Shown: positions 9,907-58,967 of the stretch, piece after piece
Layout of the letters: each line of letters starts with the position of its first letter
How positions within the stretch are numbered: position 1 is the stretch's first letter
DNA from: a gamma proteobacterium symbiont of Ctena orbiculata
Lineage (GTDB): Bacteria; Pseudomonadota; Gammaproteobacteria; Chromatiales; Chromatiaceae
Assembly: GCA_003058525.1 (NCBI GenBank)
Contig: QBVD01000063.1
Location: 1-64,000, forward strand
Direction of reading: 5' to 3'
Length of the DNA stretch: 64,000 bases
The notes under the pieces: model-generated
What the model was told of the DNA's origin: nothing
What the model saw: only the letters and a program-made list of their open reading frames with translations
Databases searched by the model: none
Program-made: the position numbers and the translations under genes

Positions 9907-10683
9907 ATGAGAAAGTCTATTTGGGTAACTTCCTTATTGTGCGTATTGGCTACGGGGCAGGTGGTCGCACAACCAACCGACGATGCTATGCGTGAATATG
10001 AGCAGGCAATGGAATTGACCCCGAACCTGGAGAACGGAAAAAAGGTATATCGAATCTGCTCCGTTTGTCACACTCCGGAGGGATGGGGCCTCGAGAGTGG
10101 CGCCTATCCTCAGGTTGCCGGTCAGTTGCCGACAGTACTGATCAAGCAGCTGGCCGATATTCGTGCCCGTAACAGAGACAATCCCACCATGCTGCCGTTC
10201 ACTTCCCCAAACCTGCTTGGCGGGGCTCAGGAGATCGCGGATGTGGCGGCCTATATCTCACAATTGCCGATGTCGCCGTACAATGGTGTGGGACACGGGA
10301 ATGACCTTGTATGGGGTGAAAAACTCTATAAGGACAACTGTACCGAGTGTCACGGTGAGATGGGTGAGGGTGATCTGGAGGATCACATCCCCGCCATATA
10401 CGGACAGCACTACCGCTATTTGCTACGTCAGTTCGAGTGGATAAAGATTGAACGCCGTCGTAACGCCGACAAAAAGATGGTTAAGCAGATTCACAACTTT
10501 ACCCATCGCGATATTCGAGCCGTTCTCGATTATGTTTCGCGCATCAGACCGCCAAAGGAGAAGATTGCGAAAGAGGGGTGGCGAAATCCGGATTTTCCCA
10601 ACTTTGCCAGGCCGGCGCACTTGCACTCCGGCGCCGGTTACGCCATCGATAAACGGCCGGGCAGGCCCATGCGGCCTGAATAG
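9907..10683 (+). CDS. Periplasmic diheme cytochrome c
   Basis: The product has 258 residues from the ATG at 9907. This start is chosen over the longer frame (9835) because GGAG precedes it and it opens a signal peptide, MRKSIWVTSLLCVLATGQ, cleaved near VVAQ. Two haem sites are present, CSVCH near residue 49 and CTECH near 147, in tandem cytochrome c domains like the divergent gene at 8.8 kb. The tail after the second domain (KEKIAKEGWRNPDFPNF to the end) is Pro/Arg-rich. It faces fccB across a shared terminator. A role in carrying electrons from sulfide oxidation is inferred from position. Confidence 0.85.
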   Translation: MRKSIWVTSLLCVLATGQVVAQPTDDAMREYEQAMELTPNLENGKKVYRICSVCHTPEGWGLESGAYPQVAGQLPTVLIKQLADIRARNRDNPTMLPFTSPNLLGGAQEIADVAAYISQLPMSPYNGVGHGNDLVWGEKLYKDNCTECHGEMGEGDLEDHIPAIYGQHYRYLLRQFEWIKIERRRNADKKMVKQIHNFTHRDIRAVLDYVSRIRPPKEKIAKEGWRNPDFPNFARPAHLHSGAGYAIDKRPGRPMRPE

Positions 10684-13899: not shown

Positions 13900-14466
13900 T
13901 TAGGACTCATCGCCCTCATCCGGTTCGTCCGGCTCCTCGTGCGCGACGCCTTTATGACAATCGATACAGGCCTTGCCCTCATCCATTGCCTTCGGGTGGC
14001 GTTTGCGGGCACTGCGATCCTGCTCACTCAGGTCCATATTGGCAAACTCATGGCAGGAGCGGCACTCACGGGAGTCGGAAGCGCGCATCTTCTCCCAGAC
14101 CCTGGTCGCCATATCCCAGCGGAGGGCCTCATACTTTTCCTTGGTGTCGATGGTGCCCATGATCTCGTGATAGACATCCTTTGCAGCCATCACCTTTGCG
14201 ATCATCTTGGGGATGAAAGGCTTGGGTACATGACAGTCCGCACAGGTGGCCTGCACACCGGAAGCATTCTTGTAGTGAGCAGTCTCCTTGAACTCTTCCA
14301 GGTTGACCTTCATGGAGTGACAGGAGGTACAGAAATCCATCTCATTGGTGAATGCCAGGCCCATACTGAACAGGCCGGAAAAGATGATACCACCAATAAA
14401 AATTATGCCCGCTAGGATTATAGAAATTTTACCCGCGGACCTGTAGCCAGCATGCTGTCTGAACAT
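13900..14466 (-). CDS. NapC/NirT-type membrane tetraheme cytochrome c
   Basis: The product has 188 residues. A single N-terminal membrane anchor (ISIILAGIIFIGGIIFSGLF, residues ~14-33) is followed by four CXXCH motifs: CTSCH, CADCH, CRSCH and CIDCH. This is the layout of NapC/NirT/NrfH quinol dehydrogenases, which move electrons from the quinol pool to periplasmic partners or the reverse. The tail is acidic (EEPDEPDEGDES). No dedicated reductase gene is adjacent; the nearest periplasmic partners are FccAB and the ankyrin protein. The ATG at 14466 is the only sensible start. Confidence 0.88.
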   Translation of the reverse strand: MFRQHAGYRSAGKISIILAGIIFIGGIIFSGLFSMGLAFTNEMDFCTSCHSMKVNLEEFKETAHYKNASGVQATCADCHVPKPFIPKMIAKVMAAKDVYHEIMGTIDTKEKYEALRWDMATRVWEKMRASDSRECRSCHEFANMDLSEQDRSARKRHPKAMDEGKACIDCHKGVAHEEPDEPDEGDES

Positions 14467-14655
14467 ACTCCACCCTCGAAATTCTGCAAGGAAAACGTTC
14501 TGTATTCCTTGTGTCGTTTGTAGCTATCCCGTCTACTTCCTGTTAGACCGGGTTATTTTTCTTGACTGGAGGATGTTACGTCAAGTCGAATGTCAATGCA
14601 AAAAATACTCTGTAAACAATCGCATGTGACATTATTAGTAGGAACTAATCTAGCT

Positions 14656-23510: not shown

Positions 23511-24089
23511 ATGGAAGGATCAATACTGCGCCGAGAAATCTTGCCCTTCATCGCAATCTTTGCCGGGTTGATCCTGGGGGCGTTGGCTGTCGATCTACTG
23601 TTGCATCAGTTTGATATGGTCTGGTTGGGCCGCTGGCTGGGGATTCCCGGCACCCTGTTGATCCTGACATCCTTCATCTACTCCCTGCGTAAACGGAAGA
23701 AGATTGCATTCGGTAAACCGAAGCGATTGCTGGCGATGCACGAAACCCTGACCTGGATAGGCGCATTGATGATTCTGGTGCACGCAGGCGTCCACATTTA
23801 CACCATCCTGCCGTGGTTGGCACTGATCGCCATGCTGGTGAATGTGATCAGCGGCATGACCGGAAAATACCTGCTCGACAGCGCGAGGAGGCGGCTTGCC
23901 GAAAAGGCGAATCACTACCGGGCGGAAGGAATGAACGGGGAGTCGATCGAACGCAGGCTCTTTTGGGACGCCACCACGGTTGATGCGATGAAGCAGTGGC
24001 GGGTGGTCCATCTGCCCATCACGCTTGCCTTCGCCGTGCTTGGACTGGCCCATATCGTGAGTATCTTTCTCTTTTGGCAATGGCAATGA
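23511..24089 (+). CDS. Small membrane protein, probable b-type cytochrome
   Basis: This 192-residue protein has about four hydrophobic helices. Histidines sit in helical positions suited to haem b: MHETLTWIGALMILVHAGVHIY in the second helix pair and VVHLPITLAFAVLGLAHIVS in the last. It starts nine bases after the reductase gene and its stop overlaps the start of the octaheme cytochrome gene (ATGA). The reading as a transmembrane electron conduit is inferred from histidine placement and context; no family name is certain. Confidence 0.65.
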   Translation: MEGSILRREILPFIAIFAGLILGALAVDLLLHQFDMVWLGRWLGIPGTLLILTSFIYSLRKRKKIAFGKPKRLLAMHETLTWIGALMILVHAGVHIYTILPWLALIAMLVNVISGMTGKYLLDSARRRLAEKANHYRAEGMNGESIERRLFWDATTVDAMKQWRVVHLPITLAFAVLGLAHIVSIFLFWQWQ

Positions 24090-24916
24090 AGCATCGAAAA
24101 CTGCTGTGGGCGGTAACCATGAATCTGGTGGTACTGATCACCTTGACGTTGATGTGGCCTCATTTGATGGTCAGCCCCGGTAAACCGATAAAGGCCCACG
24201 AGGAGATTTCAGACGACTGTTTTGCCTGCCATACGCCGTTCATAGGCAGTACGCCTGATAAATGCATCGCCTGCCACAAGGTGGACGAGATCGGTATCAA
24301 AACCACTCAGGGGCTGCCGATCGGCGGTGAAAAGAAAAATGTGGCGTTTCATCAGCAGCTCACGGAAGATGATTGCGTTGCCTGCCATAGCGATCACAAT
24401 GGAGTGATGGCCTTTCGGCCCATCAGTCAGTTTTCCCATGAGCTGGTCGAGACGACTGTGCGCGGGCAGTGCGAAGGATGTCATGCCGATCCGGTGGATG
24501 CCTTACATCGGAAGATCGAGGACGGTTGCGATCAGTGCCATACCTTTGAAGGCTGGAAGCCGGCGACATTCGACCATAATGACTATTTTCGTTTCGACCA
24601 CCACCATGAGGCCGAGTGCGAGACCTGTCATGTTGACAGCGATTTCAACAGCTACACCTGTTACGGTTGTCATGAGCACTCGAGGTCGAACATCCGCGGT
24701 GAGCATATCGAGGAAGGGATCTACGACTATGAGAATTGCGTCGAGTGCCATCGTAGCGGGGACGAGGATGAGGCAGAGTGGCGCTGGCGTTCCCGCAGGG
24801 AAGACGCCTTGCGTAGCGGAAGGGAGCGTTTCGACGGTGGGTCTGACGAGGGATTCCGGGGTTGGTACGGCAAAGAGCACGAAAAGGGATATGGACGTAG
24901 ATATGACGATGATTGA
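24086..24916 (+). CDS. Octaheme cytochrome c, membrane-anchored
   Basis: The product has 276 residues from the ATG overlapping the preceding stop. A signal-anchor (KLLWAVTMNLVVLITLTLMW) is followed by eight CXXCH motifs: CFACH, CIACH, CVACH, CEGCH, CDQCH, CETCH, CYGCH and CVECH. Many extra His (FDHNDYFRFDHHHEAE) could serve as distal ligands, as in class III cytochromes. The last ~55 residues are highly charged and repetitive in Arg, Glu and Asp. With the two upstream genes it could carry electrons to or from the periplasm. Partner and substrate unknown. Confidence 0.85.
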   Translation: MKHRKLLWAVTMNLVVLITLTLMWPHLMVSPGKPIKAHEEISDDCFACHTPFIGSTPDKCIACHKVDEIGIKTTQGLPIGGEKKNVAFHQQLTEDDCVACHSDHNGVMAFRPISQFSHELVETTVRGQCEGCHADPVDALHRKIEDGCDQCHTFEGWKPATFDHNDYFRFDHHHEAECETCHVDSDFNSYTCYGCHEHSRSNIRGEHIEEGIYDYENCVECHRSGDEDEAEWRWRSRREDALRSGRERFDGGSDEGFRGWYGKEHEKGYGRRYDDD

Positions 24917-48179: not shown

Positions 48180-48240
48180 AATTTGAAGCTACCGGAATAT
48201 GTCTGGTGCTCGGATTTCAGTCTCACAACTGGAAGCCGTA

Positions 48241-48924
48241 ATGTTGGGATTCAACGCCATATTTAACATAGTGAAAGCATATAGCACTAAAGATTCGCTG
48301 ATCTTGTTTCTGACATGCATCATGCTAATGTCTCCGGGACATATCAGTGCATGTGGTTGGTGGGGTGACGGTGAAGTCAATAGGGAGGATAACGAAGAAA
48401 TAACGACACCGGATGGAAGGGTGTTGCCCCACATAGTAAACCATCACTCATCAAAGCTTCCGGGACGGATGGGTTACGGCATTGCAATACCTGATCCGGG
48501 TCGTGCCATTCCTTATCTGCAGGCGACCATGGGACGCCCGCTCAATCGTATTGCGGAGCTGAGCGCGTTCGGGTTTAAAACGGTCATCGATATCGGTACA
48601 TCTGAAAAGAGTGCTCGTCTGCACCGAAAGGAGACCGAAGTGCTTGGTATGCGCTATATAAGCATACCGGTAGACGGCAACCTGCCGAGCCGGGAGCAGG
48701 TTGAGGATTTCACTCAACATGTTGTAGATGCCAGCCATGGAATGCTGTTGGTCTATGCCCCAAGATCAGAACTGCTTGGGACTATGTGGGCGGCCTACCG
48801 GATGAATCTTGGCGCACCTGTCGGCTTCGCCATTAAGGAAGGCAGAGAACTCGGTATGCTGCCTGATCAAGAGATTACTCTTCGTAATCGTTATGGATCA
48901 AAAAAAGACCCTGAAACGCCCTAG
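48241..48924 (+). CDS. Exported dual-specificity-phosphatase-fold protein lacking the catalytic cysteine
   Basis: The product has 227 residues. An N-terminal export signal ends in HISAC, a possible lipobox. The rest resembles the small tyrosine/dual-specificity phosphatase fold of the beta-lactamase-hydrolase-like group: NRIAELSAFGFKTVIDIGTS, YISIPVDGNLPSREQVEDF, then the P-loop region. Where the family has HCxxGxxR, this reads YAPRSELLGTMW, so the nucleophilic Cys is Ala. It is probably a binding protein. It is convergent with the molybdoenzyme operon. The ATG at 48241 has GGAAG upstream; 48199 and a GTG at 48271 are alternatives. Confidence 0.6.
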   Translation: MLGFNAIFNIVKAYSTKDSLILFLTCIMLMSPGHISACGWWGDGEVNREDNEEITTPDGRVLPHIVNHHSSKLPGRMGYGIAIPDPGRAIPYLQATMGRPLNRIAELSAFGFKTVIDIGTSEKSARLHRKETEVLGMRYISIPVDGNLPSREQVEDFTQHVVDASHGMLLVYAPRSELLGTMWAAYRMNLGAPVGFAIKEGRELGMLPDQEITLRNRYGSKKDPETP

Positions 48925-48994: not shown

Positions 48995-49648
48995 CTAGGC
49001 GGCTGTTTCGGTTACTAGACTCTGCTCTTCGAGCTTAAGGAAACTGTTTGTCAACTTAGCCAGTTCCCGGTAAAAAGGAATACCTGCCTGCGCTATCACC
49101 GCATCACAGAACTTGGGTATCCAACCCAGAATATGCTGTTGCAAGAACATGCGCTGAATTGACAGGCAGTACTCGGCACTGATGCGATCCATCTCTATCC
49201 ACTTGTCGGTTTCCCAATCGGCCAGCTTCTGCATGAACTCAAGTTCAACGCTGATATGATCAGGCAGCCCCGTGAACTGGGAAGCGTAATCAAGTCCGGT
49301 TGTCTCGATAAACTTCTTCACTTCAACTGTTCTGGCGCCCCATAAACCACCTGAGTCACCATCCACTTCAGTGAAAATCGATTCATGGGCGGAAATATGC
49401 CGTCCAGGACCTATGAACAGGCGCGAAAATTCAAGCGCAAGTTGATCGGCTATGGTTGATACGGGTTCGCTGTAAAAAGAGCTCCCCATTTCCAGCTCCA
49501 TGTCCGAGAAGGCCCCCGCCAAGCGGGGCCCCCTCAGTTCGTTGATGAAGGCTTCGCTGGGCTCCTGCCGAAAGACCAGGGTCAATAACCCATACATGTC
49601 ACTTCTTGTTTTGGCGTTATCGGCCATTTTATTCCAGTCGGTTCCCAT
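48995..49648 (-). CDS. TorD-family chaperone for the molybdoenzyme
   Basis: The 217-residue product belongs to the TorD/DmsD/NarJ-like helical family: ALEFSRLFIGPGRHISAHES matches the family core ExxRLFxGP. Such chaperones bind the Tat signal and help insert molybdopterin. It is last in the operon, 30 bases after the catalytic subunit, and is probably dedicated to it. Confidence 0.88.
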   Translation of the reverse strand: MGTDWNKMADNAKTRSDMYGLLTLVFRQEPSEAFINELRGPRLAGAFSDMELEMGSSFYSEPVSTIADQLALEFSRLFIGPGRHISAHESIFTEVDGDSGGLWGARTVEVKKFIETTGLDYASQFTGLPDHISVELEFMQKLADWETDKWIEMDRISAEYCLSIQRMFLQQHILGWIPKFCDAVIAQAGIPFYRELAKLTNSFLKLEEQSLVTETAA

Positions 49649-49677
49649 TTCAGCTCTCCTCTTTCAGTAGACTCAAT

Positions 49678-52203
49678 TTATGCCTTGGCTACCCTGACGA
49701 CGGTATCCATCCACCGCTGTGTGCCGCTGATAGGATCTGATGAGTTGGGGATGATGGTATTGGGATGAGTACCATGCTTTTTCCACCATATATTCTTCAC
49801 ATCCGGATCAGCCGCGGCGCCTCCCGGTGTGGGAGAACGCTTGCCCGAACCATAGACCCCCGAGTGCTTGCGACCCAGGTGATGGGATATGGCGATCACA
49901 CCCGGAATGATGCCTTCGGTAACATAGGCTGTGGTGGTGATCTCACCCAGGCTGTTATAGACCCTGATCTTGTCTCCATTCTTAATACCGCGTGCTTCAG
50001 CCGTCTTGGTATTGATCCAGCCGGGATTGTCGTGCTTGATCTCGGTGAGCCACTTGCAGTGCGCGGTCCTTGAATGGGTATGTACCGCCACCTTGTAGGT
50101 GGTGAGATTCAGCTCATCATCCGCCATCTTCTGGTGTTCGGGAATCGGCGTATAGGATGGGAATGCCGGAAAACCCTTGTTGGCGAAATTATCTGAATAG
50201 AAGTCCAGATAACCTGCCTTGACGAACTTGGTATTGGGTGGATAGGCCAGGTAAGCCGTGCCATCGATATTTTGCGCGACATAGGCCTTTTTAGCGCCTT
50301 TCGTACCCAGATACCCTTGACGCTTGGCTTCGGCTTCACTGCCGACACCTGCCTTTTTCCAGTTCCAGTAGACACCGGTCTTCTCATCGAGAATCACGCC
50401 ATCGCCGGACACGTCCACCTTGGCCTCATAGAAGCCGTAGTTGGGTTTGGCCTTCGGATCGTGCCATACGCCTTGCTTCTTCATATACTCGAAGCCTCCG
50501 GCTTCCCGCACACCGGGTGTCATCTCACAGGACTGACGTACGAAGTCTTCCTTGCTTGAGTATGCCAGTTCAAAGCCCATGCGCTTGGCCAGCTCAGGCC
50601 AGACATCGCCCTGGCAACGTGATTCTCCCAGGGGTTTAACCAACGGCTGCCGGATATAGAACTCGGCGATCTGGTTTGCCGACACCATGTCCTCCCAGTC
50701 CCAGCGCTCCAGGTATGTGACGTCGGGTAGGATCAAGTCTGCATACTGAGATGATTCGTCATAGACGATGGTTGTTGAAATAAGGAAGGGGATAATACTT
50801 TCATCCCGCATAATCGACTGCAGTTCCTTGTTGTCGCCATTGATGAATCCCGGGTTGTAGCAACTCCACCAGTAGACCTTCGGTCGACCCGCCTGGCCAT
50901 CCTTGATCATCGGTAGCACCTGGTGGCTTACATGGTGAGTCGGGTAGGCCGCTTCACCCGGAAACCCGTCCTTGACGTGGAGCGTTTTGTGGACCTTCGC
51001 CTTGGGGGAGGAGGGATGTTTCCAGCCTGCTCCAACACCCATGACACGTCCACCCGGACGATCGAGATTGTTGGTGATCGCTGACAACAGCATTGCCGCC
51101 CGCTCCTGATCCGCGCCGTGATAGTGCATTACGGTTCCACGGTAGGTGACCAGGCAGGCTGATTTGGCTTTTGCGAACCCGCGAGCGATTTTGCGTATGG
51201 TATCGGCTGGCACACCACTCTGTTTCTCTGCAAACTCGGGGGTATACTTAGCGACATTTTTCTTCACCGCTGCAATCTTCTCATCGACAGTCGCTTTGTA
51301 GTTTTCGCTGACACGCATGAATTTGAAGTGATCCTTCCTGTAGAGTTTCTCGTTCATGATGACATTACACATGGCCAGCATCACCAGTCCATCATGTCCC
51401 ACTTTGATCGGTACCCACTGATCGGCCTTGGCCGCTGTGTTTGTCAGGCGCACGTCAAATACATATAAGGGTACGCCACGATCAACCTTGGCCCGGATCA
51501 GTCTCTGGGCAGTCGGAATATGGTTGGTATGGGTCTCAAACTGATTACTGCCGAAAATCACTACGTAATCGGTGTTGTCATAATCCCAGTTGTCATACAT
51601 GCCACCCCACAGACTCTCCTGTCCTACCCATTTTGCCGCCTCACAGACAGAGGTGTGATTACCGATGGTGCCAGTGCCGTAGGCCTGCATGAAGTCGTAC
51701 ATGGTGGCAGCCTGGGACGCCTTGTGTCTGCCGTACTGATACATGAACAGCTCAGGGGTACCCGCATCGCGCAGGGGTTTCAGCTTGGATACGATCAGGT
51801 CAAGGGCCTCATCCCAGGAAATACGCTTCCATTTGTGCTCGCCACGTTTGCCTGCGCGTTTCATCGGGTGCAGGATCCGGTCGGGGAAGTAGACCTGGTT
51901 GATGCCCGCCTGTCCCTTGGCGCAGAGTTTGCCGAGTGTACGGATGGAATCGGGATGTCCTTCGAGCTTTACCAGGCGTCCATCTTCTACATAACCGATC
52001 ATGGAGTCTCGGGTTACACACTGCCAGCAGGCCGTGGGAATTGCCTGTCTCTCCTTACCTGTTGTGGGTGAAAAATCCTTGCCGCCCGCCTGCAGTTTAA
52101 GCGATCCGGCAAATGCACTCTGACTGCAGCCCAATCCGGCTGCCAATGCGCAACCGCTGCCGGCGGTCAGTTTCATGAAATCACGACGATTTAACTTTTT
52201 CAT
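49678..52203 (-). CDS. Tat-exported molybdopterin oxidoreductase, catalytic subunit with Asp at an FS0 ligand site
   Basis: The product has 841 residues of the DMSO-reductase family. A Tat signal (NRRDFMKLTAGSG) is followed by the FS0 4Fe-4S site C59-x2-C62-x3-D66-x27-C94, where D66 (codon 52006-52008, GAC) replaces the third Cys. The likely Mo ligand is C187 in GNHTSVCEAAKW, as in polysulfide, thiosulfate, tetrathionate and arsenate enzymes. NLDRPGGRVMG and the C-terminal cofactor domain (HTHSRTAHCKWLTEI, ISHHLGRKHSGVYG) are intact. Substrate is not known. AGAGGA precedes the ATG. The ferredoxin and dodecaheme subunits lie upstream in the same operon. Confidence 0.88.
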   Translation of the reverse strand: MKKLNRRDFMKLTAGSGCALAAGLGCSQSAFAGSLKLQAGGKDFSPTTGKERQAIPTACWQCVTRDSMIGYVEDGRLVKLEGHPDSIRTLGKLCAKGQAGINQVYFPDRILHPMKRAGKRGEHKWKRISWDEALDLIVSKLKPLRDAGTPELFMYQYGRHKASQAATMYDFMQAYGTGTIGNHTSVCEAAKWVGQESLWGGMYDNWDYDNTDYVVIFGSNQFETHTNHIPTAQRLIRAKVDRGVPLYVFDVRLTNTAAKADQWVPIKVGHDGLVMLAMCNVIMNEKLYRKDHFKFMRVSENYKATVDEKIAAVKKNVAKYTPEFAEKQSGVPADTIRKIARGFAKAKSACLVTYRGTVMHYHGADQERAAMLLSAITNNLDRPGGRVMGVGAGWKHPSSPKAKVHKTLHVKDGFPGEAAYPTHHVSHQVLPMIKDGQAGRPKVYWWSCYNPGFINGDNKELQSIMRDESIIPFLISTTIVYDESSQYADLILPDVTYLERWDWEDMVSANQIAEFYIRQPLVKPLGESRCQGDVWPELAKRMGFELAYSSKEDFVRQSCEMTPGVREAGGFEYMKKQGVWHDPKAKPNYGFYEAKVDVSGDGVILDEKTGVYWNWKKAGVGSEAEAKRQGYLGTKGAKKAYVAQNIDGTAYLAYPPNTKFVKAGYLDFYSDNFANKGFPAFPSYTPIPEHQKMADDELNLTTYKVAVHTHSRTAHCKWLTEIKHDNPGWINTKTAEARGIKNGDKIRVYNSLGEITTTAYVTEGIIPGVIAISHHLGRKHSGVYGSGKRSPTPGGAAADPDVKNIWWKKHGTHPNTIIPNSSDPISGTQRWMDTVVRVAKA

Positions 52204-52236
52204 ATCAATTCCTCTCTTAATACAGGCTCTCAGGGT

Positions 52237-53088
52237 CTATGGAATCTGGTCCACAAAGTGGTCCAGTTTGCCCTTCTTTCGCTGTGTATAGAGGGTTTTC
52301 AACATGTTGTCGGGATCGATGTAGAACACATGAGGAATGGTTCCCTCTTCCGGAAGCAGCACGTTGTCAGCCTTGGCCAGGTTGTGCTCTTTTACAAGCT
52401 TGGAGACTTCACTGTTCGGGTCGTTGAGGTCACCGAAAATTCGTGCACGTCCCTGGCAAGTGTTGACACAGGATGGCTCGACCCCGTTATCGACACGATG
52501 AGCACACATATCGCATTTGTCCGCAGCCTGCTTTGTAGGATCAGCACCCGCTTTGACAAAGGGATCAAATGAACGGACGCCGTAAGGGCAGGCATCGATA
52601 CACTTGCCGCAGCCGATACATTTTTCTTTGTCTATCAGGATCAAGCCATCAGGACGTTTATAGGTCGCACCCGTGCGATAACGTATGGTTTTGCCATCAG
52701 CCGTCTTGAACTTGGCCCGTTTGCCTGGAAATTCCGGACAGGCTTTGACACAAGGTGGAACACCATCTTTCTCATTGCCCTCGCAGTGATTGCACATCAG
52801 GGGCAGGAATTCCTTCTTGGTATTTGGAAATGTACCCATGGTTTTCTCTTGGACGACAGCCCGGAAACGGCCCAAAGAGACGTCGTTTTCAGATTTGCAG
52901 GCCACGGTACAGGCCCTGCAACCTATGCAGCGCCTGAGGTCCATCACCATCGCCCAACGGGGTGCTTTTGATTGAGCCGCTTCAAGACTCACCTTCGGTG
53001 TCGCCAATGTCGCAGCGCCTATCGCGGCTGTGCCTACACCACTTAGAAATTTGCGACGGTTGACGTCTGGTGTTTTGTTGTCACTCAT
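52237..53088 (-). CDS. Tat-exported four-cluster ferredoxin subunit of the molybdoenzyme
   Basis: The product has 284 residues from the ATG at 53088, chosen because AGGAGA precedes it and a twin-arginine signal follows (VNRRKFLSGVGTAAIGAATL). Four 4Fe-4S motifs are present: CIGCRACTVAC, CNHC with CVKACP, CIGCGKCIDACPYG, and CDMC with CVNTC, as in TtrB/PsrB-type subunits. It would wire the Mo subunit to the dodecaheme cytochrome. The ATG lies within the last codons of the cytochrome gene (8-base overlap). Confidence 0.92.
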   Translation of the reverse strand: MSDNKTPDVNRRKFLSGVGTAAIGAATLATPKVSLEAAQSKAPRWAMVMDLRRCIGCRACTVACKSENDVSLGRFRAVVQEKTMGTFPNTKKEFLPLMCNHCEGNEKDGVPPCVKACPEFPGKRAKFKTADGKTIRYRTGATYKRPDGLILIDKEKCIGCGKCIDACPYGVRSFDPFVKAGADPTKQAADKCDMCAHRVDNGVEPSCVNTCQGRARIFGDLNDPNSEVSKLVKEHNLAKADNVLLPEEGTIPHVFYIDPDNMLKTLYTQRKKGKLDHFVDQIP

Positions 53089-54670
53089 ATCGTATTCTCC
53101 TACGCATCTCCTCACCCTCCGCTACAGTTGATTGTGTGGTTTTTGCAAGATCATCACTACTTCTCGTCTCTTCCAATAGCTCAATGGTGTCTTCAAAATT
53201 GCCGAATGCACCGTCGAGAATGTTTACTGCGTACTTTTTGTTATGTACGCCGTTTCCAACGCGTACAATATTGAGAAGCTCACTTCCCTTGGCTAGCATT
53301 TCCTCTGCTTGGGTCAAACTCTCATTGTCCAATCTATCCTTCAGTTCGGCGAAGAGATCTCTGGCTTCCTTCTCAACCTCTTCCACGTCCGCTACTTCAG
53401 TTGTGAGTAATTCCTTCCAGTCACTGAGCATTTTTCTGTGCTGTTCGGTATGGCAGGCAGCACAGGTATCGCCTGATGCAGTTCTCACATCATGCCCTTT
53501 ACTCAGCGTCTTCTTGAGATGACAGCCCATACAGTTTGTGTTGACTTCATACATAAGATGCGGGTCACCCGAGATGTCCTCATCAACAGGAGAGCCTGAA
53601 AGTAATAACCTTTGATACTTATGCTGGTCGACATGACAGAGCTGACAATCATTGCGTACGAAATCAAGATGGTCAGTTCTGTTCTTATGTTCGATCACGC
53701 TGTGACAATCGAAGCAGTCAGCCTTGTTCGGCACATGCTTGCCATGCATGAGTTCGCGGTCGCCTGCGGTTGCCAGTAACGTCTGACTTCTGTTATGGCA
53801 GGTAAGACAGCCGTTCGAGACGACATTTCCGGTATCAATCGCTCCCTCCCCGCTCACCATTTCGAAGTGGCAACTCTCACACGCAACGCCTGATTCCTGT
53901 ATTGTCTGATGGGTGATCGGTTTTTTGGTACTGGCGGGGTCGCCTGCCTGTAACTGGCTTTGAAGCGATTTTGTCGGGATCGTGTGGCAGATATCACAAC
54001 GGGAGACCCCTTGATTGAAATCGATGGCCGGTTTGTTGACAAAAGTGATTTTCTTAATGTCCCCATTGGCCATCTCCGCTTTGTCAAGTGTGGGTTTGTC
54101 CAGTTTAAGGTGACAAAGGAAACAGATATCTTCAGGCACCTCGAAGTGCTTTTTCTCCGTTGTCTTGAAATGGCATGTATCGCAGGTGATTTGGTGGCCG
54201 TCGAGAGCCTTATCACTAAAGTGAACCTGGTGTTTGAAACGGACCCGGTCAGTAAACTGTATCTCCACCAGTGACAGTTTTTCACGGTTGTGACAGCCGG
54301 ACTGTAAACATGCGCCATCCTTGATCACAGGGCGGATGGGTAGGGGAGCATCCCGGTCATAAAGGTAGGCTGCAAGGTGGCGTAATCCTTCGTACTTGGC
54401 CTTCATGGAATGCTTCTCGCCTGGTAAAAAGTGGCAATCGACACACTCCGCTTGCATGCCGTCCGGATTATTGCTCTTGTAGTGATAGTTTGACTTCCAG
54501 GCTTCGTACTGTTCTGTCATGGTGTGGCAGCTGCCCCCACAAAAAGACGACTGCGATGTGTAATACTCAAAACCGCCCCAGGCTGTTAAGAGAAACAGAA
54601 CTGTTCCCGTGAAGATCAGTACCATCAGTCGCCAGGTAACTCTTAATTCAATTCCAGCGCCACTATTCAT
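53081..54670 (-). CDS. Membrane-anchored dodecaheme cytochrome c
   Basis: The product has 529 residues. One N-terminal helix (LMVLIFTGTVLFLLTAWGGF) is followed by a NapC-like start, then twelve haem sites: ten CXXCH (CVDCH, CDTCH, CFLCH, CDICH, CESCH, CLTCH, CFDCH, CQLCH, CMGCH, CAACH), one CX3CH (CGGSCH, residues 44-49) and one CX4CH (CLQSGCH, 121-127). The last ~110 residues are haem-free and helical with GNGVHNKKYAVNIL, recalling the helical end of NrfA-like cytochromes. It is first in the operon and probably links the quinone pool to the ferredoxin and Mo subunits in the periplasm. Confidence 0.9.
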   Translation of the reverse strand: MNSGAGIELRVTWRLMVLIFTGTVLFLLTAWGGFEYYTSQSSFCGGSCHTMTEQYEAWKSNYHYKSNNPDGMQAECVDCHFLPGEKHSMKAKYEGLRHLAAYLYDRDAPLPIRPVIKDGACLQSGCHNREKLSLVEIQFTDRVRFKHQVHFSDKALDGHQITCDTCHFKTTEKKHFEVPEDICFLCHLKLDKPTLDKAEMANGDIKKITFVNKPAIDFNQGVSRCDICHTIPTKSLQSQLQAGDPASTKKPITHQTIQESGVACESCHFEMVSGEGAIDTGNVVSNGCLTCHNRSQTLLATAGDRELMHGKHVPNKADCFDCHSVIEHKNRTDHLDFVRNDCQLCHVDQHKYQRLLLSGSPVDEDISGDPHLMYEVNTNCMGCHLKKTLSKGHDVRTASGDTCAACHTEQHRKMLSDWKELLTTEVADVEEVEKEARDLFAELKDRLDNESLTQAEEMLAKGSELLNIVRVGNGVHNKKYAVNILDGAFGNFEDTIELLEETRSSDDLAKTTQSTVAEGEEMRRRIRYE

Positions 54671-54739
54671 TGCCTTTGTTTTCCCCCAGTCGGGCAGACT
54701 GTGTTCACTCGGCTTTGCGTTTATATGTCTCAGGACATC

Positions 54740-54755
54740 AGCAAGAGTCGTTCCA
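54740..54755 (-). promoter_or_regulatory. Sigma-54 promoter of the molybdoenzyme operon
   Basis: The minus strand reads TGGAACGACTCTTGCT, which fits TGGCACGNNNNTTGCW with one change and exact GG-N10-GC spacing. Transcription would start near 54728, giving a leader of about 60 bases. A GAFTGA-containing activator is encoded divergently. Confidence 0.8.
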
Positions 54756-54818
54756 GGTTATTATCTGTTTGAAAAAAAGAGAAAAATATAAAGGTGAATA
54801 ATTATTGATCCGGATTTT

Positions 54819-54927
54819 GTTACCTGTTGGTTACTTTTCGCTGAATTGCGTAACCATTGTGGTTTGTTCTTTAATTACATGCTGTTAGCAAAACAGCGCC
54901 TCACAGTATGTTACCGATAAGTAACAT
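54819..54927. promoter_or_regulatory. Candidate enhancer sites (GTTAC/GTAAC repeats)
   Basis: GTTAC occurs at 54819-54823 and 54830-54834, GTAAC at 54850-54854, and a palindrome ATGTTAC-N6-GTAACAT spans 54908-54927. They lie about 65-185 bases upstream of the sigma-54 promoter, the usual range for NtrC-type activators. An outer inverted repeat, AGCGCCTC (54895-54902) and GAGGCGCT (54941-54948), brackets the palindrome. Confidence 0.6.
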
Positions 54928-55218
54928 ATCGAGATGTGGAGAGGCGCTCCGGAAAAGGCCTCTTCACTGTTCCTGAAAAAGCGCGTACAAACAGCTGGTC
55001 TGGATGCGGACAGTGGACGTATGCAACTAAAAAACAACAACTTCCTGATTAAATAATGGATTCTGCTATCCTTGCAGAATAGCAATTATAAAAGTATGGG
55101 AAAGCGTAGCCGTTGACGATCTTTGTTCTCTGCAGGGAGCGTATGACGTTTGTCGTAATGCAGCTACCGTGACATAACTTAGCAGTATCCTGAGTAGTTG
55201 TTTTAGTGAGGATCCCAA

Positions 55219-56088
55219 GTGCGATTGACCTTTTTAATATTTCTTTTCTGGATTACTCCAATTTATGCAGTTGATACGGAAGCACCTATCCGTTTTGGTT
55301 TAACGGCTGTTGTGCCCACTGAAAATCTAAGATTTCTGGATCAATGGAGTCAATACCTGGAGCAAAAAACAGGTCGCAAGGTCGAGTTTGTGCAGAGAAA
55401 ATCTTATCGGGAAGTAATGGATCTGTTGGGCACGGGTGTTATCGATTTCGCTTGGATCTGCGGTTATCCCTACATCCAGGCAAGAGAACCTGAATCACTT
55501 CAGCTCCTGACAGTGCCTATTTACCGGGGAGCACCACGTTATCACTCTTATATAATTGTCCACCATAACAGTCCCTATAAACGCTTTAGCGACCTGAGAG
55601 GGAAGAGTTTTGCCTTCTCTGATCCTGATTCGAATTCAGGTTTCCTCTATCCACTGGCCTTGATTGCAAAAAAAGGTGAGAAGCCTGAGTCTTTTTTCCG
55701 TCAGACATTCTTTACCTTCAATCACGCTGAGACGGTACAAGCCGTTTCCGAGCAGGTTGCAGATGCTGGAGCCGTCGACTCGTATATATGGGAGTACATT
55801 GCCGTCTTCAAGCCGGATATTACTGAAAAAACCCGAATAATAAAGAAATCGCCAAGCTTTGGTTTTCCACCTGTTGTTTACCGTTTAGGTGTAGATAGCG
55901 ACATAGTAAAACAAATGAAACATACACTTGAAAATATGAATCAGGATTTAACCGGACAGGAACTGCTCGGCCGGCTCAAACTGGATGGCTTCGGTGATTA
56001 TTCCGATTCGTTGTTCAACGAAATCCGCGCTTTGGAAAATACAGTTCAAAGCGTCGACCCCAGGTATTCCGTGGTACAAACAGATTAA
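55219..56088 (+). CDS. PhnD-like periplasmic substrate-binding protein (probable sensor)
   Basis: The 289-residue protein has a signal peptide (MRLTFLIFLFWITPIYA) and the PhnD-type fold: IRFGLTAVVPTENLRFLDQW, DFAWICGYPYIQA and SDLRGKSFAFSDPDSNSGFL. No transporter genes follow; instead come a histidine kinase and a sigma-54 activator. This is the same layout as AioX-AioS-AioR and ArxX-S-R for arsenite, where the binding protein senses the substrate and signals to the kinase. The ligand here is not known. The GTG start at 55219 has GAGGA seven bases upstream. Confidence 0.85.
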   Translation: MRLTFLIFLFWITPIYAVDTEAPIRFGLTAVVPTENLRFLDQWSQYLEQKTGRKVEFVQRKSYREVMDLLGTGVIDFAWICGYPYIQAREPESLQLLTVPIYRGAPRYHSYIIVHHNSPYKRFSDLRGKSFAFSDPDSNSGFLYPLALIAKKGEKPESFFRQTFFTFNHAETVQAVSEQVADAGAVDSYIWEYIAVFKPDITEKTRIIKKSPSFGFPPVVYRLGVDSDIVKQMKHTLENMNQDLTGQELLGRLKLDGFGDYSDSLFNEIRALENTVQSVDPRYSVVQTD

Positions 56089-56103
56089 TTATTCAGTATA
56101 CAA

Positions 56104-57579
56104 ATGCCCATGATTAATCCGAAATCCTGGCCATTGGCGATAAAGTTGTCCCTTACCATAACGGCCGTTGTTACATGCGTCGGATTCCTGATCGGAGTAC
56201 TCATGGTTGTCCAGGACTGGAAACGATTTCAAAATGATCTGGGTGAAAAAGCACTGCTGCTATCTGAATCCATTTCAATCACTGCGCCAAAGGCGATGCT
56301 GCGAAAGGACTACTGGTCTCTTTACCTCAGTCTCAAGAATATGGCATCCAAGGGACCTGGGGCCAGAAGCGAACACGAAATCACAGATGCGATGATATTG
56401 GATGCTGAAGGTATGGTTCAGGCCCATCTTCATCCCGCGAGGCATCCGATAGGTCTTGTCTTTTCACCGGATAGTGAAACTGAGAAAGCTATAACCAGCC
56501 AGGCGATGGCCGCAAGAACACCGACCGTGTTGAGCAGCGGCGGTTTTTCCAAAGATGGTTTTCAGGAGGGGGTCGTACCGCTGTTTTCAGATCAAAAATA
56601 CCTTGGTGTGGTTCGGGTTCGTCTCTCTGTCGCCAGCCTGTTCGAAAAGGCGAAATCGACAGCCGTTATCGTTCTTCTGTCGATATTGCTCTTCGTCTTC
56701 ATCGGCAGCCTGCTGGGTACCATAGTATCCAGGCGGGTTGTCGGGCCTCTGACCGCCATCACTCACGGACTTGAGGCGGTAGGACGAGGAGAGATGACCG
56801 ACTTTTCGCCAATACCGGTGAAAGAGGGAGATGAAATAGGAAGGCTTAGTGTGACCTTCAATCAGATCATGTCTGAACTGGCGGAAAAAAAGATGCTCGA
56901 GGAGGAGATCGCAATGAGCGAGAAACTGGTTGCCTTGGGAAGAATTACTGCGGGTGTGGCGCATGAGGTGAATAATCCACTTGCAGGGCTTTTAAACTGC
57001 ATAGATACACTGCGTCAGCATCCAAACGACAAGGAGTTGATCGATCGTTACCTGCCGGTTATTGACCAGGGACTGCATCGGATTAAAGATATTGTTCATA
57101 ACCTTCTCGTTGGACTTAGGAACGAGGAGAGTGATGAAATGATAAACATCCAACAGGTCGACAAGCTTCATGATTTGATCCTGGCGGAAATAGGTGAAAG
57201 AGATATCAAAATATTCTGGAACAATACAACAGACAGAGATACCTGTATTCCAGGAAAGACCGAACAGATAATCTGTAATTTGCTGAAAAACGCCGTTGAA
57301 ATCATTCCCGAAAACGGAACCATTGATTTCAACATGCATCAAGAGGGAAGTCTTCTCGTCATCAAAGTCAGTGATAATGGCCCTGGAGTTGCCTCAAATA
57401 TACGAAACCAACTGTTCGACCCTTTCTTTACAACCAAACCCAACGGCACCGGATTGGGACTGTGGGTTGTCTACCGTCTGGTTCAGAATATGCAAGGTAT
57501 CATCGAGGTTGAGAGCGAGTTGGGAAAAGGTACGACTTTCCTCATCGAACTACCCGTAATCAGAAGGCAGGCAGCCTGA
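56104..57579 (+). CDS. Membrane sensor histidine kinase
   Basis: The product has 491 residues. Two membrane helices (ITAVVTCVGFLIGVLMVV near 20 and IVLLSILLFVFIGSLLGTI near 190) bracket a periplasmic sensor domain of about 150 residues. HAMP follows, then the phospho-His box VAHEVNNPLAGLLNCIDTL, and an ATPase domain with NLLKNAVEII, DNGPGV and GTGLGLWVVYRL. It probably receives the signal from the PhnD-like protein 15 bases upstream. Its stop overlaps the regulator start by one base. Confidence 0.92.
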   Translation: MPMINPKSWPLAIKLSLTITAVVTCVGFLIGVLMVVQDWKRFQNDLGEKALLLSESISITAPKAMLRKDYWSLYLSLKNMASKGPGARSEHEITDAMILDAEGMVQAHLHPARHPIGLVFSPDSETEKAITSQAMAARTPTVLSSGGFSKDGFQEGVVPLFSDQKYLGVVRVRLSVASLFEKAKSTAVIVLLSILLFVFIGSLLGTIVSRRVVGPLTAITHGLEAVGRGEMTDFSPIPVKEGDEIGRLSVTFNQIMSELAEKKMLEEEIAMSEKLVALGRITAGVAHEVNNPLAGLLNCIDTLRQHPNDKELIDRYLPVIDQGLHRIKDIVHNLLVGLRNEESDEMINIQQVDKLHDLILAEIGERDIKIFWNNTTDRDTCIPGKTEQIICNLLKNAVEIIPENGTIDFNMHQEGSLLVIKVSDNGPGVASNIRNQLFDPFFTTKPNGTGLGLWVVYRLVQNMQGIIEVESELGKGTTFLIELPVIRRQAA

Positions 57580-58967
57580 TGCAGAATAGTATGGATCAGG
57601 CGATGGAGGCGGATAGCTACAAAGACTTGTGCCTGTTGTTGGTTGAAGATGATGAGATCATGCAAATATCGCTTGTTGACAGGCTGCGTATAGAATCAAT
57701 ACCCGTGCGTGCGGTAAGTGATATAGCGAGTGCAAGAAAAGAGTTGGAAAAAGGAGATATAGATCTTGTGGTAACCGATATCCGCCTGCCGGATGGCACA
57801 GGGATCGAACTCTTTACAGATATCTCAAACAATTATCCAGGCATACCCGTCATCCTGATGACGGCTTACGGCGATATATCGGATGCAGTCGCCACGGTTA
57901 AAGCCGGCGCTTTGGATTATCTGACAAAACCTTTTGACATTAATGAGTTCATCAAGAAGGTGACGCATCAGCTCTCCTGCATTTCCGATATTCAGTTAAC
58001 GATCAACAACTCTGGCACTGATGATAATTACTTCAAACCGGGTAGTGGTTGTTTGGGAAAAAGCAACGCCATGCGAAAGATCGAGAGACTTGTGGCGCGA
58101 CTCAGAGAGAGTGACAGTTCAGTATTGCTTACCGGAGAGTCCGGGGTTGGCAAAGAGGTCGTTGCAAACCTGATACACAACAATAGTCTCAGGTCACAGG
58201 GTCCCATGGTAAGTGTAAACTGTGCCGCTCTACCTGCCACACTGATCGAAAGTGAGCTCTTTGGCCATGAAAAGGGGGCTTTTACCGGAGCGACACAACA
58301 ACGAAAAGGACGTTTTGAGCAGGCCCAAGGCGGCACCATCTTTCTTGATGAGATCGCGGAAGTATCGTCCGATATACAGGTAAAACTATTAAGAGTGCTG
58401 CAGGAGAGGGAGTTCGAACGTGTTGGCGGATCTGTTTCAATTGCACTTGATGTGAGGGTGATTGCCGCAACTCAGGCCAATCTCGATGTCGCTATTGAAA
58501 AAAATGAATTCAGGTCGGATCTTTACTGGCGTCTCAATGTAATCAATATCGAAATTCCACCACTGCGGCAACGTAGGGAGGACATAGTCTATCTCGCCAG
58601 ACAATTCGTCAGCCAACTGGGGCGATGCAAAAAGGGTGGCATCAAAGGTCTGTCGAAGGAGGCTGAGCTCTGTCTTCAATCCATGTCATTCCCTGGGAAT
58701 GTTCGTGAACTGAAGAATGTCATCGAAAGAGCTGTCGCCCTGTGCGAAGGGCCTTGGATAAGCCAAAGCGATCTTTCGATCACTGCCAGCAATACCCACA
58801 CTCACGATACAACTACACTAAAAGAGACTATCGAAGAGGCTGAACGAAAGTCAATAACCAGGGCATTAGCGGATCATAACGGTAAAATCAATCAGACAGC
58901 AGATTCCTTGGGTATCTCGCGTAAAAACCTGTGGGAGAAGATGAAACGCTACGAAATAGATAAGTAG
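57579..58967 (+). CDS. NtrC-family sigma-54-dependent response regulator
   Basis: The product has 462 residues: a receiver domain (LLLVEDDEIMQ, phospho-Asp in VVTDIRLPDG, MTAYGD, LTKPFD), an AAA+ domain with Walker A GESGVGKE and the sigma-54 contact GAFTGA, and a Fis-type HTH at the end (INQTADSLGISRKNLWEKMK). It is the likely activator of the divergent molybdoenzyme operon, which has a sigma-54 promoter and repeated GTTAC sites. Confidence 0.94.
   Translation: MQNSMDQAMEADSYKDLCLLLVEDDEIMQISLVDRLRIESIPVRAVSDIASARKELEKGDIDLVVTDIRLPDGTGIELFTDISNNYPGIPVILMTAYGDISDAVATVKAGALDYLTKPFDINEFIKKVTHQLSCISDIQLTINNSGTDDNYFKPGSGCLGKSNAMRKIERLVARLRESDSSVLLTGESGVGKEVVANLIHNNSLRSQGPMVSVNCAALPATLIESELFGHEKGAFTGATQQRKGRFEQAQGGTIFLDEIAEVSSDIQVKLLRVLQEREFERVGGSVSIALDVRVIAATQANLDVAIEKNEFRSDLYWRLNVINIEIPPLRQRREDIVYLARQFVSQLGRCKKGGIKGLSKEAELCLQSMSFPGNVRELKNVIERAVALCEGPWISQSDLSITASNTHTHDTTTLKETIEEAERKSITRALADHNGKINQTADSLGISRKNLWEKMKRYEIDK

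Follow-up and report, generated by a model that had tools for sequence, protein, structure and literature searches.

The 64,000-nucleotide stretch analysed here (the window; positions 1 to 64,000 of contig QBVD01000063.1, assembly GCA_003058525.1) comes from a gammaproteobacterial symbiont of Ctena orbiculata and carries two divergent operons, separated by a 548-bp gap, that are predicted to encode a respiratory molybdoenzyme complex and its regulators (Table 1). The structural operon comprises genes for a dodecahaem cytochrome (Cyt12), a four-cluster ferredoxin subunit (Fer), a catalytic molybdenum subunit (Cat) and a TorD-type chaperone, and the opposing operon encodes a periplasmic sensor protein (X), a histidine kinase (S) and a response regulator (R). 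An initial annotation, made from the sequence alone, had proposed this arrangement, and all seven open reading frames are indeed open at those coordinates and on those strands, with families that agree; the twin-arginine translocation (Tat) motifs that it reported are visible in both Cat and Fer, and the structural operon is, as it stated, devoid of an NrfD gene. Fer probably begins at the ATG at 53088 and not at the GTG at 53115 given in the open reading frame list, with 16 cysteines downstream of the likely start. Three features go beyond that annotation: Asp66 in the FS0 motif of Cat, a sigma-54 promoter-like site and a palindromic putative operator.

Table 1. Features of the cyt12-fer-cat-torD and X-S-R locus; positions are those of the window.
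Feature	Position	Strand	Basis or remark
Possible accessory, probably exported phosphatase-fold protein	48199..48924	+	Convergent with TorD; PF22741 exactly at cut-off
TorD-type chaperone	48995..49648	-	PF02613, 78 bits; adjoins Cat in 8/8 close relatives
Cat, catalytic Mo subunit, Tat signal	49678..52203	-	PF00384+PF01568+PF04879; trees
Fer, Tat four-cluster ferredoxin subunit	52237..53088	-	Fer4-type family
Cyt12, dodecahaem cytochrome	53081..54670	-	PF03264 (NapC/NirT) and cytochrome-c3 domains
Sigma-54 -24/-12 promoter-like site TGGAACGACTCTTGCT	54740..54755	-	Reads into cytochrome operon
Putative R-binding operator GTTACCGATAAGTAAC (GTTAC-N6-GTAAC)	54910..54925	.	Palindrome
X, AioX/ArxX-type periplasmic oxyanion-binding sensor protein	55219..56088	+	PF12974
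S, membrane histidine kinase, two hydrophobic helices	56104..57579	+	HAMP+HisKA+HATPase
R, NtrC-type sigma-54 activator with GAFTGA	57579..58967	+	Receiver+Sigma54_activat+HTH_8

Relatives of the locus were sampled as the best 80 of at least 564 confirmed Cat relatives from a contig scan, the 80 loci amounting to 1.37 Mb. Eight of them, in which Cat is 66-81% identical to that of the window (L042-L045, L054, L076, L023 and L024), are referred to as the close relatives and form with the window a clade of nine. All seven genes, Cyt12-Fer-Cat-TorD together with X-S-R, recur in each of the eight, so that a chance alignment of the seven can be rejected; X-S-R is divergent in six and lies downstream on the same strand in L043 and L044. 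The loci L042-L045, L054 and L076 belong to the Alphaproteobacteria or its orders. Cat matches at E<=1e-100 were found in 11 of 274 genomes of the window's own class, the source genome counted. Eleven deeper loci that also encode Cyt12 (L046-L050, L052, L058, L066, L067, L104 and L107) come mostly from Desulfobacterota groups, L107 being from the Nitrospiraceae. Two sister branches carry NrfD, one with Cat 53-59% identical (GRMKAS-type) and one with Cat 38-40% identical (GRNRTGG-type), the latter typified by a plasmid of Azoarcus KH32C and having X-S-R in most loci and arsA or acr3 in several. Four gammaproteobacterial metagenome-assembled genomes (L057, L062, L069 and L079) have two tandem NrfD-branch Cat genes beside X-S-R and paired operators spaced 42-44 bp, and one genome (G111) has both the dodecahaem type (L023) and the NrfD type (L027) of the Cat family as well as an AioA/IdrA-family protein over cut-off. 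A 330-residue open reading frame between S and R in L023 (5438-6430) looks by eye like an inserted transposase, and in L043 a rhodanese-domain protein (14124-14543) lies between the operon and X-S-R.

The cytochrome was described as carrying twelve haems, and twelve motifs were counted (ten CX2CH, one CX3CH and one CX4CH), which use all 24 of its cysteines; all twelve are kept in the eight close relatives and in 10 of the 11 deeper loci, with 11 in L049. Cyt12 scores 59.9 bits against PF03264 (NapC/NirT; cut-off 24.1) and shows the features of NapC/NrfH membership. A hydrophobic N-terminal membrane helix (15-33) and a NapC/NrfH-like domain are followed by c3-like domains and a haem-free helical tail with the sequence GNGVHNKKYA, of which GVHNKKY is invariant in an 18-sequence alignment. 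No solved structure matched Cyt12 in sequence at E<=0.01, and the AlphaFold models are poor (mean predicted local distance difference test score 54.7 for Cyt12 and 45.7 for Cat), that of Cyt12 being confident solely at the N-terminal helix and the C-terminal helices. In the window clade Cyt12 carries its own membrane foot. The cytochromes of the deeper loci are 31-35% identical to it, and because nine of these 11 appear by eye to be without the NapC-like start, and L104 has genes for Fer, NrfD and an 8-haem cytochrome directly upstream of the dodecahaem gene, Cyt12 looks like a general wire that would link the catalytic pair to varied quinone or cytochrome c modules. A dihaem class I cytochrome c adjoins the operon in four of the eight close relatives (L043, L044, L045 and L054), which suits an electron outlet to cytochrome c; its counterpart in the window is just a weak 27% match, far off at 9907-10371. 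The suggestion that the 12-haem cytochrome takes the place of NrfD stands for the window clade but does not extend to the whole Cat family, as the two sister branches have NrfD and L104 has both. Elsewhere in the window two further multihaem open reading frames, at 13900-14466 (four haem motifs) and 23996-24916 (eight), are unlinked to the Cyt12 operon.

By alignment, the molybdenum ligand of Cat is C187. The Cat family keeps, as does ArrA, a GR, a histidine four residues ahead of the ligand cysteine and a lysine after it, with surrounding letters that are its own. In the window these read YGRHKAS, which is neither the XGRGWG that marks ArxA near the active site nor the (R/K)GRY that marks ArrA (PMC6549141); GRGWG was found in L124, L126 and L129. 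A second peculiarity concerns the FS0 cluster, whose motif C59-C62-D66-C94 places an aspartate at the third cysteine position, occupied by cysteine in 13 of 13 references (4 ArrA, 3 ArxA, 2 PhsA, 3 TtrA-like and DmsA). The aspartate occurs in the window, in all eight close relatives, in all deeper Cyt12 loci but L050 and L104 (nine of 11) and in KH32C-type loci, and the 53-59% NrfD branch has cysteine, a distribution from which it follows that the aspartate is not strictly tied to a Cyt12 partner.

The phylogenetic position of Cat was approached through family models and two trees. Among the 25 NCBIfam families shown, Cat falls under every curated cut-off, the best being PhsA (NF012032; 338 bits against 694), and it reaches 171 bits on the ArrA model (NF041714), for which the cut-off is 1600. 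The quick tree had 82 rows, 21 of 103 having been dropped, and the careful tree 48 rows with E. coli DmsA as root; L029, L107 and L108 were too short to be included and L012 and L034 were not entered. Besides DmsA, the references comprised four ArrA, three ArxA (the named one from Cereibacter azotoformans ORIO), two PhsA drawn from 299 genomes of the phylum, and three TtrA-like proteins (one in the 48-row tree), with no PsrA, SrrA or AnrA; a search for the PhsA family across 143 genomes of the class returned no PhsA. In the careful tree all members of the Cat family fall together (100/99), ArrA plus ArxA form a separate clade (100/99; ArxA alone 100/100), and the nine window-clade loci group at 100/100 as sister to L050, L104 and L058 (98/98); the quick tree concurs (supports 99, 100 and 100). 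Approximately unbiased (AU) tests, for which the groups were named after the tree had been made, reject a union of the Cat family with ArxA alone (p 0.011) or with ArrA alone (p 0.005), and of the window clade with ArxA (p 2e-48). On motifs, trees and AU tests, membership in ArxA or ArrA is rejected. The initial annotation held that the system fits no named one, and in agreement with this Cat falls in none of the clades of the ArrA, ArxA, PhsA, TtrA-like and DmsA references, the family lying outside ArrA, ArxA, TtrA and PhsA, four of the six groups with which comparison had been proposed. Lineages without an assigned function are reported in this part of the superfamily (PMC10100899).

NCBIfam scores and placement outside the PhsA and TtrA references also reject a thiosulfate or tetrathionate reductase, although the TtrA-like references, from which Cat stands apart in both trees, have long branches and do not reach the NF011567 cut-off themselves. 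A wider form of this alternative, in which the enzyme acts on a sulfur, selenium or thioarsenic oxyanion and an Aio-type sensor has come to bind a different ligand, might draw on the PhsA model as the best of the family scores and on a cysteine ligand that is common to the wider sulfur, selenium and arsenic lineage, as described in PMC10100899 and PMC7331816. We consider it very unlikely, given that Cat branches apart from both PhsA references and from the TtrA-like ones, that the sensor pocket is of arsenic type and that the operator is common to arx loci.

The regulatory trio had been likened to those of Aio and Arx, and X proved to be of that kind, scoring 213 bits with AioX among solved structures against 145 with ArrX and 61 with PtxB. 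The seven pocket residues named in PMC5908839 (Y88, C106, Y131, S161, S163, H192 and D210) are all kept in the nine X proteins of the clade, and their loop, GLTAVV, is of AioX/ArxX and not ArrX type, with valine at both positions 56 and 57, where the same report gives Phe57 for AioX and isoleucine for ArxX. In a tree of X, the nine fall on the AioX/ArxX side (96 in the Shimodaira-Hasegawa-like approximate likelihood ratio test, SH-aLRT) and the deeper X proteins on the ArrX side (95); ArrX-like loops were seen in five deeper Cyt12 loci (L046, L047, L052, L058 and L067), and X of L107 is without the cysteine. The Cat clade is sister to L050, L104 and L058, yet L058 has an ArrX-like sensor, which suggests that the histories of sensor and enzyme are separate. 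The source genome has a single X of this kind.

AioX and ArxX serve arsenite oxidases, and according to PMC5908839 both bound arsenite alone among the ligands tested, antimonite included. This finding weighs on another alternative, that of an antimony enzyme, either an AnrA-like antimonate reductase or an oxidase acting on antimonite, which appears decidedly unlikely, the AnrA sequence lying outside our comparison. It draws on the NrfD sister operons, which are ordered Fer-NrfD-Cat-TorD and in some cases lie near X, S and R, much as the anr operon of Geobacter sp. SVR is said to run B-C-A-D with three regulators. AnrA figures in PMC13284237 as a respiratory reductase specific for Sb, but another published Sb(III) oxidase, NaoABC, was placed nearest NapA by its authors (PMC11521347), and two deeper relatives of the window locus adjoin ars operons, though these may handle Sb(III) too.

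The control elements in the intergenic gap point to arsenic as well. The promoter-like site TGGAACGACTCTTGCT is the sole sigma-54-like site scoring at least 18.2 on either strand of the window, and when the gap was shuffled by mononucleotides, 2 of 1000 shuffles reached its score. All nine clade loci have a site of at least 17.2 upstream of the structural operon, a threshold that also picks 10 further sites in the loci of the eight relatives, and 34 of 1000 shuffles scored at least as high as the L043 promoter. That arsenite oxidase genes (aox/aio) are under sigma-54 control has been published (PMC2848651). About 155 bp upstream of the promoter-like site lies GTTACCGATAAGTAAC, the sole palindrome of its kind in the window, and GTTAC-N6-GTAAC was found in eight of the nine clade loci. 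It is very similar to the AioR consensus, which we take to be GTTNC-N6-GNAAC. The 80 loci hold 54 copies of the palindrome and a single copy of its reversed control, though the loci are related and counts drawn from them are therefore not independent. In 18 of 31 loci with an AioX/ArxX-type X (23 when counted anywhere) the palindrome lies upstream of the first structural gene at a distance of no more than 1.5 kb; the same holds for none of eight ArrX-type loci (anywhere, one), for neither of two with a Cys-less X, and for three of 39 without a full X (anywhere, five), L102, whose X is cut by the contig edge, being among the three. The palindrome is likewise located between X and the structural genes of two arx operons that carry the ArxA motif, once in L152 (6648-6663; a second copy lies inside the arxB2-like gene) and twice in L153 (10561-10621), and, in two copies, of an arrA operon, L154 (6289-6904). 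The palindrome may thus be a general marker of this arsenic regulon, and since in the source genome it is no commoner than its control (6 against 10 sites, no enrichment), its meaning rests on its conserved position.

Arsenic genes adjoin the Cyt12 operon in two of the deeper loci, L050 and L104 (bacteria BMS3Abin06 and BMS3Bbin08), in the form of arsR, acr3, arsD, arsA and an arsC-like gene. In both loci the scores for ArsD, Acr3 and the ArsR family lie above the cut-offs and those of the ArsC models below; the ArsA of L050, the sole ArsA scanned, is above the general GET3/ArsA cut-off and below two arsenic-specific ones. Because the pocket and loop of X are AioX-like, the operator is common with arx and arrA loci, and L050 and L104 adjoin ars operons, we favour the reading, with a probability of roughly 0.4, that the window encodes a periplasmic, membrane-anchored arsenic respiratory complex that belongs to a third lineage of molybdoenzymes, next to Aio and Arx/Arr. 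The oxyanion enzyme induced by its own substrate that had been proposed from the sequence is in this way sharpened to arsenic, the choice between oxidase and reductase forming no part of that refinement. In the proposed scheme, periplasmic arsenite would bind X, presumably through the conserved cysteine, X would activate S, and S would phosphorylate R, which would bind GTTAC-N6-GTAAC and promote sigma-54 transcription of cyt12-fer-cat-torD. TorD would aid loading of the molybdenum cofactor, and Tat would export Cat and Fer. At Mo(Cys), Cat would take two electrons from the arsenic oxyanion or give two to it, and electrons would probably pass from Cat through the unusual FS0, with aspartate at its third ligand position, and the four Fer clusters to Cyt12, which, in the place of NrfD, would make the link to soluble cytochrome c or, by way of its NapC-like foot, to the quinone pool.

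As to direction, the enzyme is more likely arsenite-oxidising than arsenate-reducing. Oxidation is favoured because AioX and ArxX serve arsenite oxidases and a dihaem cytochrome c accompanies four close relatives, and because the source genome has an ArrA-type protein and NapA and no AioA match at E<=1e-30. The source genome (4.74 Mb, 112 contigs) has seven PF00384 proteins, namely Cat, the ArrA-type protein, NapA, a formate dehydrogenase, DmsA-like and Fdh-like proteins, and L003; NapA, which shares its contig with the window, and the formate dehydrogenase exceed their family cut-offs, and the DmsA-like and Fdh-like proteins fall below theirs. The ArrA-type protein has RGRY and reaches 1133 bits on the ArrA model, below the cut-off given above; its operon (L040, contig C49, 4675-11330) also encodes an ArrB-like protein, a cytochrome b and an octahaem cytochrome of the tetrathionate reductase family. 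Among the eight other clade genomes G279 alone has an ArrA-type protein, 84% identical to that of the source genome, and none has an ArxA-type match at E<=1e-60.

The opposite direction would make the complex an arsenate reductase, fed from quinol through the NapC-like foot to Fer and Cat, with its product, arsenite, inducing the operon; CymA feeds ArrAB in Shewanella in an analogous way. The NapC/NirT domain with its single membrane helix, the ArrX-like loops of all five deeper Cyt12 loci with a Cys-bearing X, and the existence of an arrA operon with X-S-R and the same operator (L154) all speak for this alternative. It is nevertheless unlikely, as the source genome is already equipped with an ArrA-type operon, complete with an octahaem cytochrome and a cytochrome b of its own, and the X proteins of the clade are of the AioX/ArxX loop type.

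Several observations weigh against an arsenite-oxidising complex, or against its arsenic assignment. Cytochromes of the NapC/NrfH type as a rule take electrons from quinol and pass them to reductases. The X of the arrA operon L154 has a loop that looks similar by eye, and since L154 places X-S-R and the operator over arrA, the type of sensor does not fix the direction. The surroundings of the window operon yielded no ars gene, the acr3 of the source genome lies on another contig, and Acr3 is present in six of the nine clade genomes, with no match in the other three. An AioA/IdrA-family protein over cut-off in three of the nine (G111, G154 and G274) counts against the reading as well, since it would be redundant with an arsenite oxidase. 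Both the clade locus L043 and the arx locus of Cereibacter ORIO lack the palindrome, and the lack of genome-wide enrichment noted above is a further difficulty. The nine clade X proteins are not well supported as a group of their own (57), and pocket residues by themselves do not set selectivity, as reported in PMC5908839.

A more far-reaching possibility is that the chassis of this third arsenic lineage (aspartate at FS0, four-cluster ferredoxin, dodecahaem wire) works both ways. In this scenario it would serve as a reductase under ArrX-type sensors in anaerobic Desulfobacterota and would have become an arsenite oxidase in the Alphaproteobacteria, and presumably the Gammaproteobacteria, after gaining an AioX/ArxX-type sensor and operator, a course of events that we regard as unlikely.

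One close comparison is with Arx (arxB2ABCD with arxXSR), which has X-S-R beside the operon, a Tat-exported molybdenum subunit, a four-cluster ferredoxin and TorD, as well as the same operator in L152 and L153; the window differs in a Cat that has YGRHKAS in place of XGRGWG and falls outside ArxA plus ArrA, and in an operon without NrfD (ArxC) and ArxB2 that has the dodecahaem cytochrome and Asp66. Arr is alike in the histidine four residues before the Mo-cysteine, the conserved GR and the ferredoxin partner, and in some bacteria it relies on multihaem donors such as CymA, but Cat is without (R/K)GRY, scores far below the ArrA cut-off and forms a separate clade, and an ArrA-type operon lies elsewhere in the source genome. 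The likeness to AioXSR extends to an X that is nearest AioX and matches its pocket residues exactly, an NtrC-type R and a sigma-54 promoter, yet the X-S-R of the window would control another enzyme lineage, the binding of R to the operator being predicted from sequence. Against PsrA and PhsA stand a Cat below the NF012032 cut-off, the lack of an NrfD anchor and a position apart from the two PhsA in the trees, in which PsrA and SrrA were not included. The Fer-NrfD-Cat-TorD operons of Azoarcus sp. KH32C, Aromatoleum, Hydrogenophaga and others (Cat 38-40%) belong to the same catalytic family and have X-S-R in most cases, the same operator in many, the FS0 aspartate, and arsA or acr3 beside some, but they have an NrfD membrane subunit, no dodecahaem cytochrome and a GRNRTGG-type motif. 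In the literature searched, no characterisation of these operons was found and no description of this Cyt12-Fer-Cat complex was recognised. A SoeABC-like cluster without a Tat signal, proposed for arsenite oxidation in Thioalkalivibrio (PMC6620896), was outside the sequence comparison.

Regulation of the arsenic type has precedents, as does the overall architecture of the enzyme, and it is the catalytic lineage, the dodecahaem partner and the FS0 aspartate that are absent from the characterised systems compared, with AnrA, outside that comparison, the main risk to novelty. Arsenic respiration is usually sought through aioA, arxA and arrA, markers that would miss this lineage, if our reading is true, and its relatives occur in Alphaproteobacteria, Gammaproteobacteria, Desulfobacterota and Nitrospirota. 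The complex would then combine a 12-haem cytochrome in the place of NrfD with an aspartate at an FS0 ligand position, and redox potential and the direction of electron flow could be addressed in one purified complex.

Base composition does not set the locus apart, and a foreign island was rejected on this ground, the GC content at 48-60 kb (0.45-0.54) lying within the range of the window (0.41-0.63). Scans of the window against Rfam at the gathering threshold and for tRNA genes were empty. Next to torD, the possible accessory gene encodes a BLH/PTP-like protein, with homologues beside the cluster in three of the eight close relatives (L042, L045 and L076). It reads VYAPRSELLG where protein tyrosine phosphatases (PTPs) have their catalytic cysteine, and for this reason it may be a non-catalytic binding protein.

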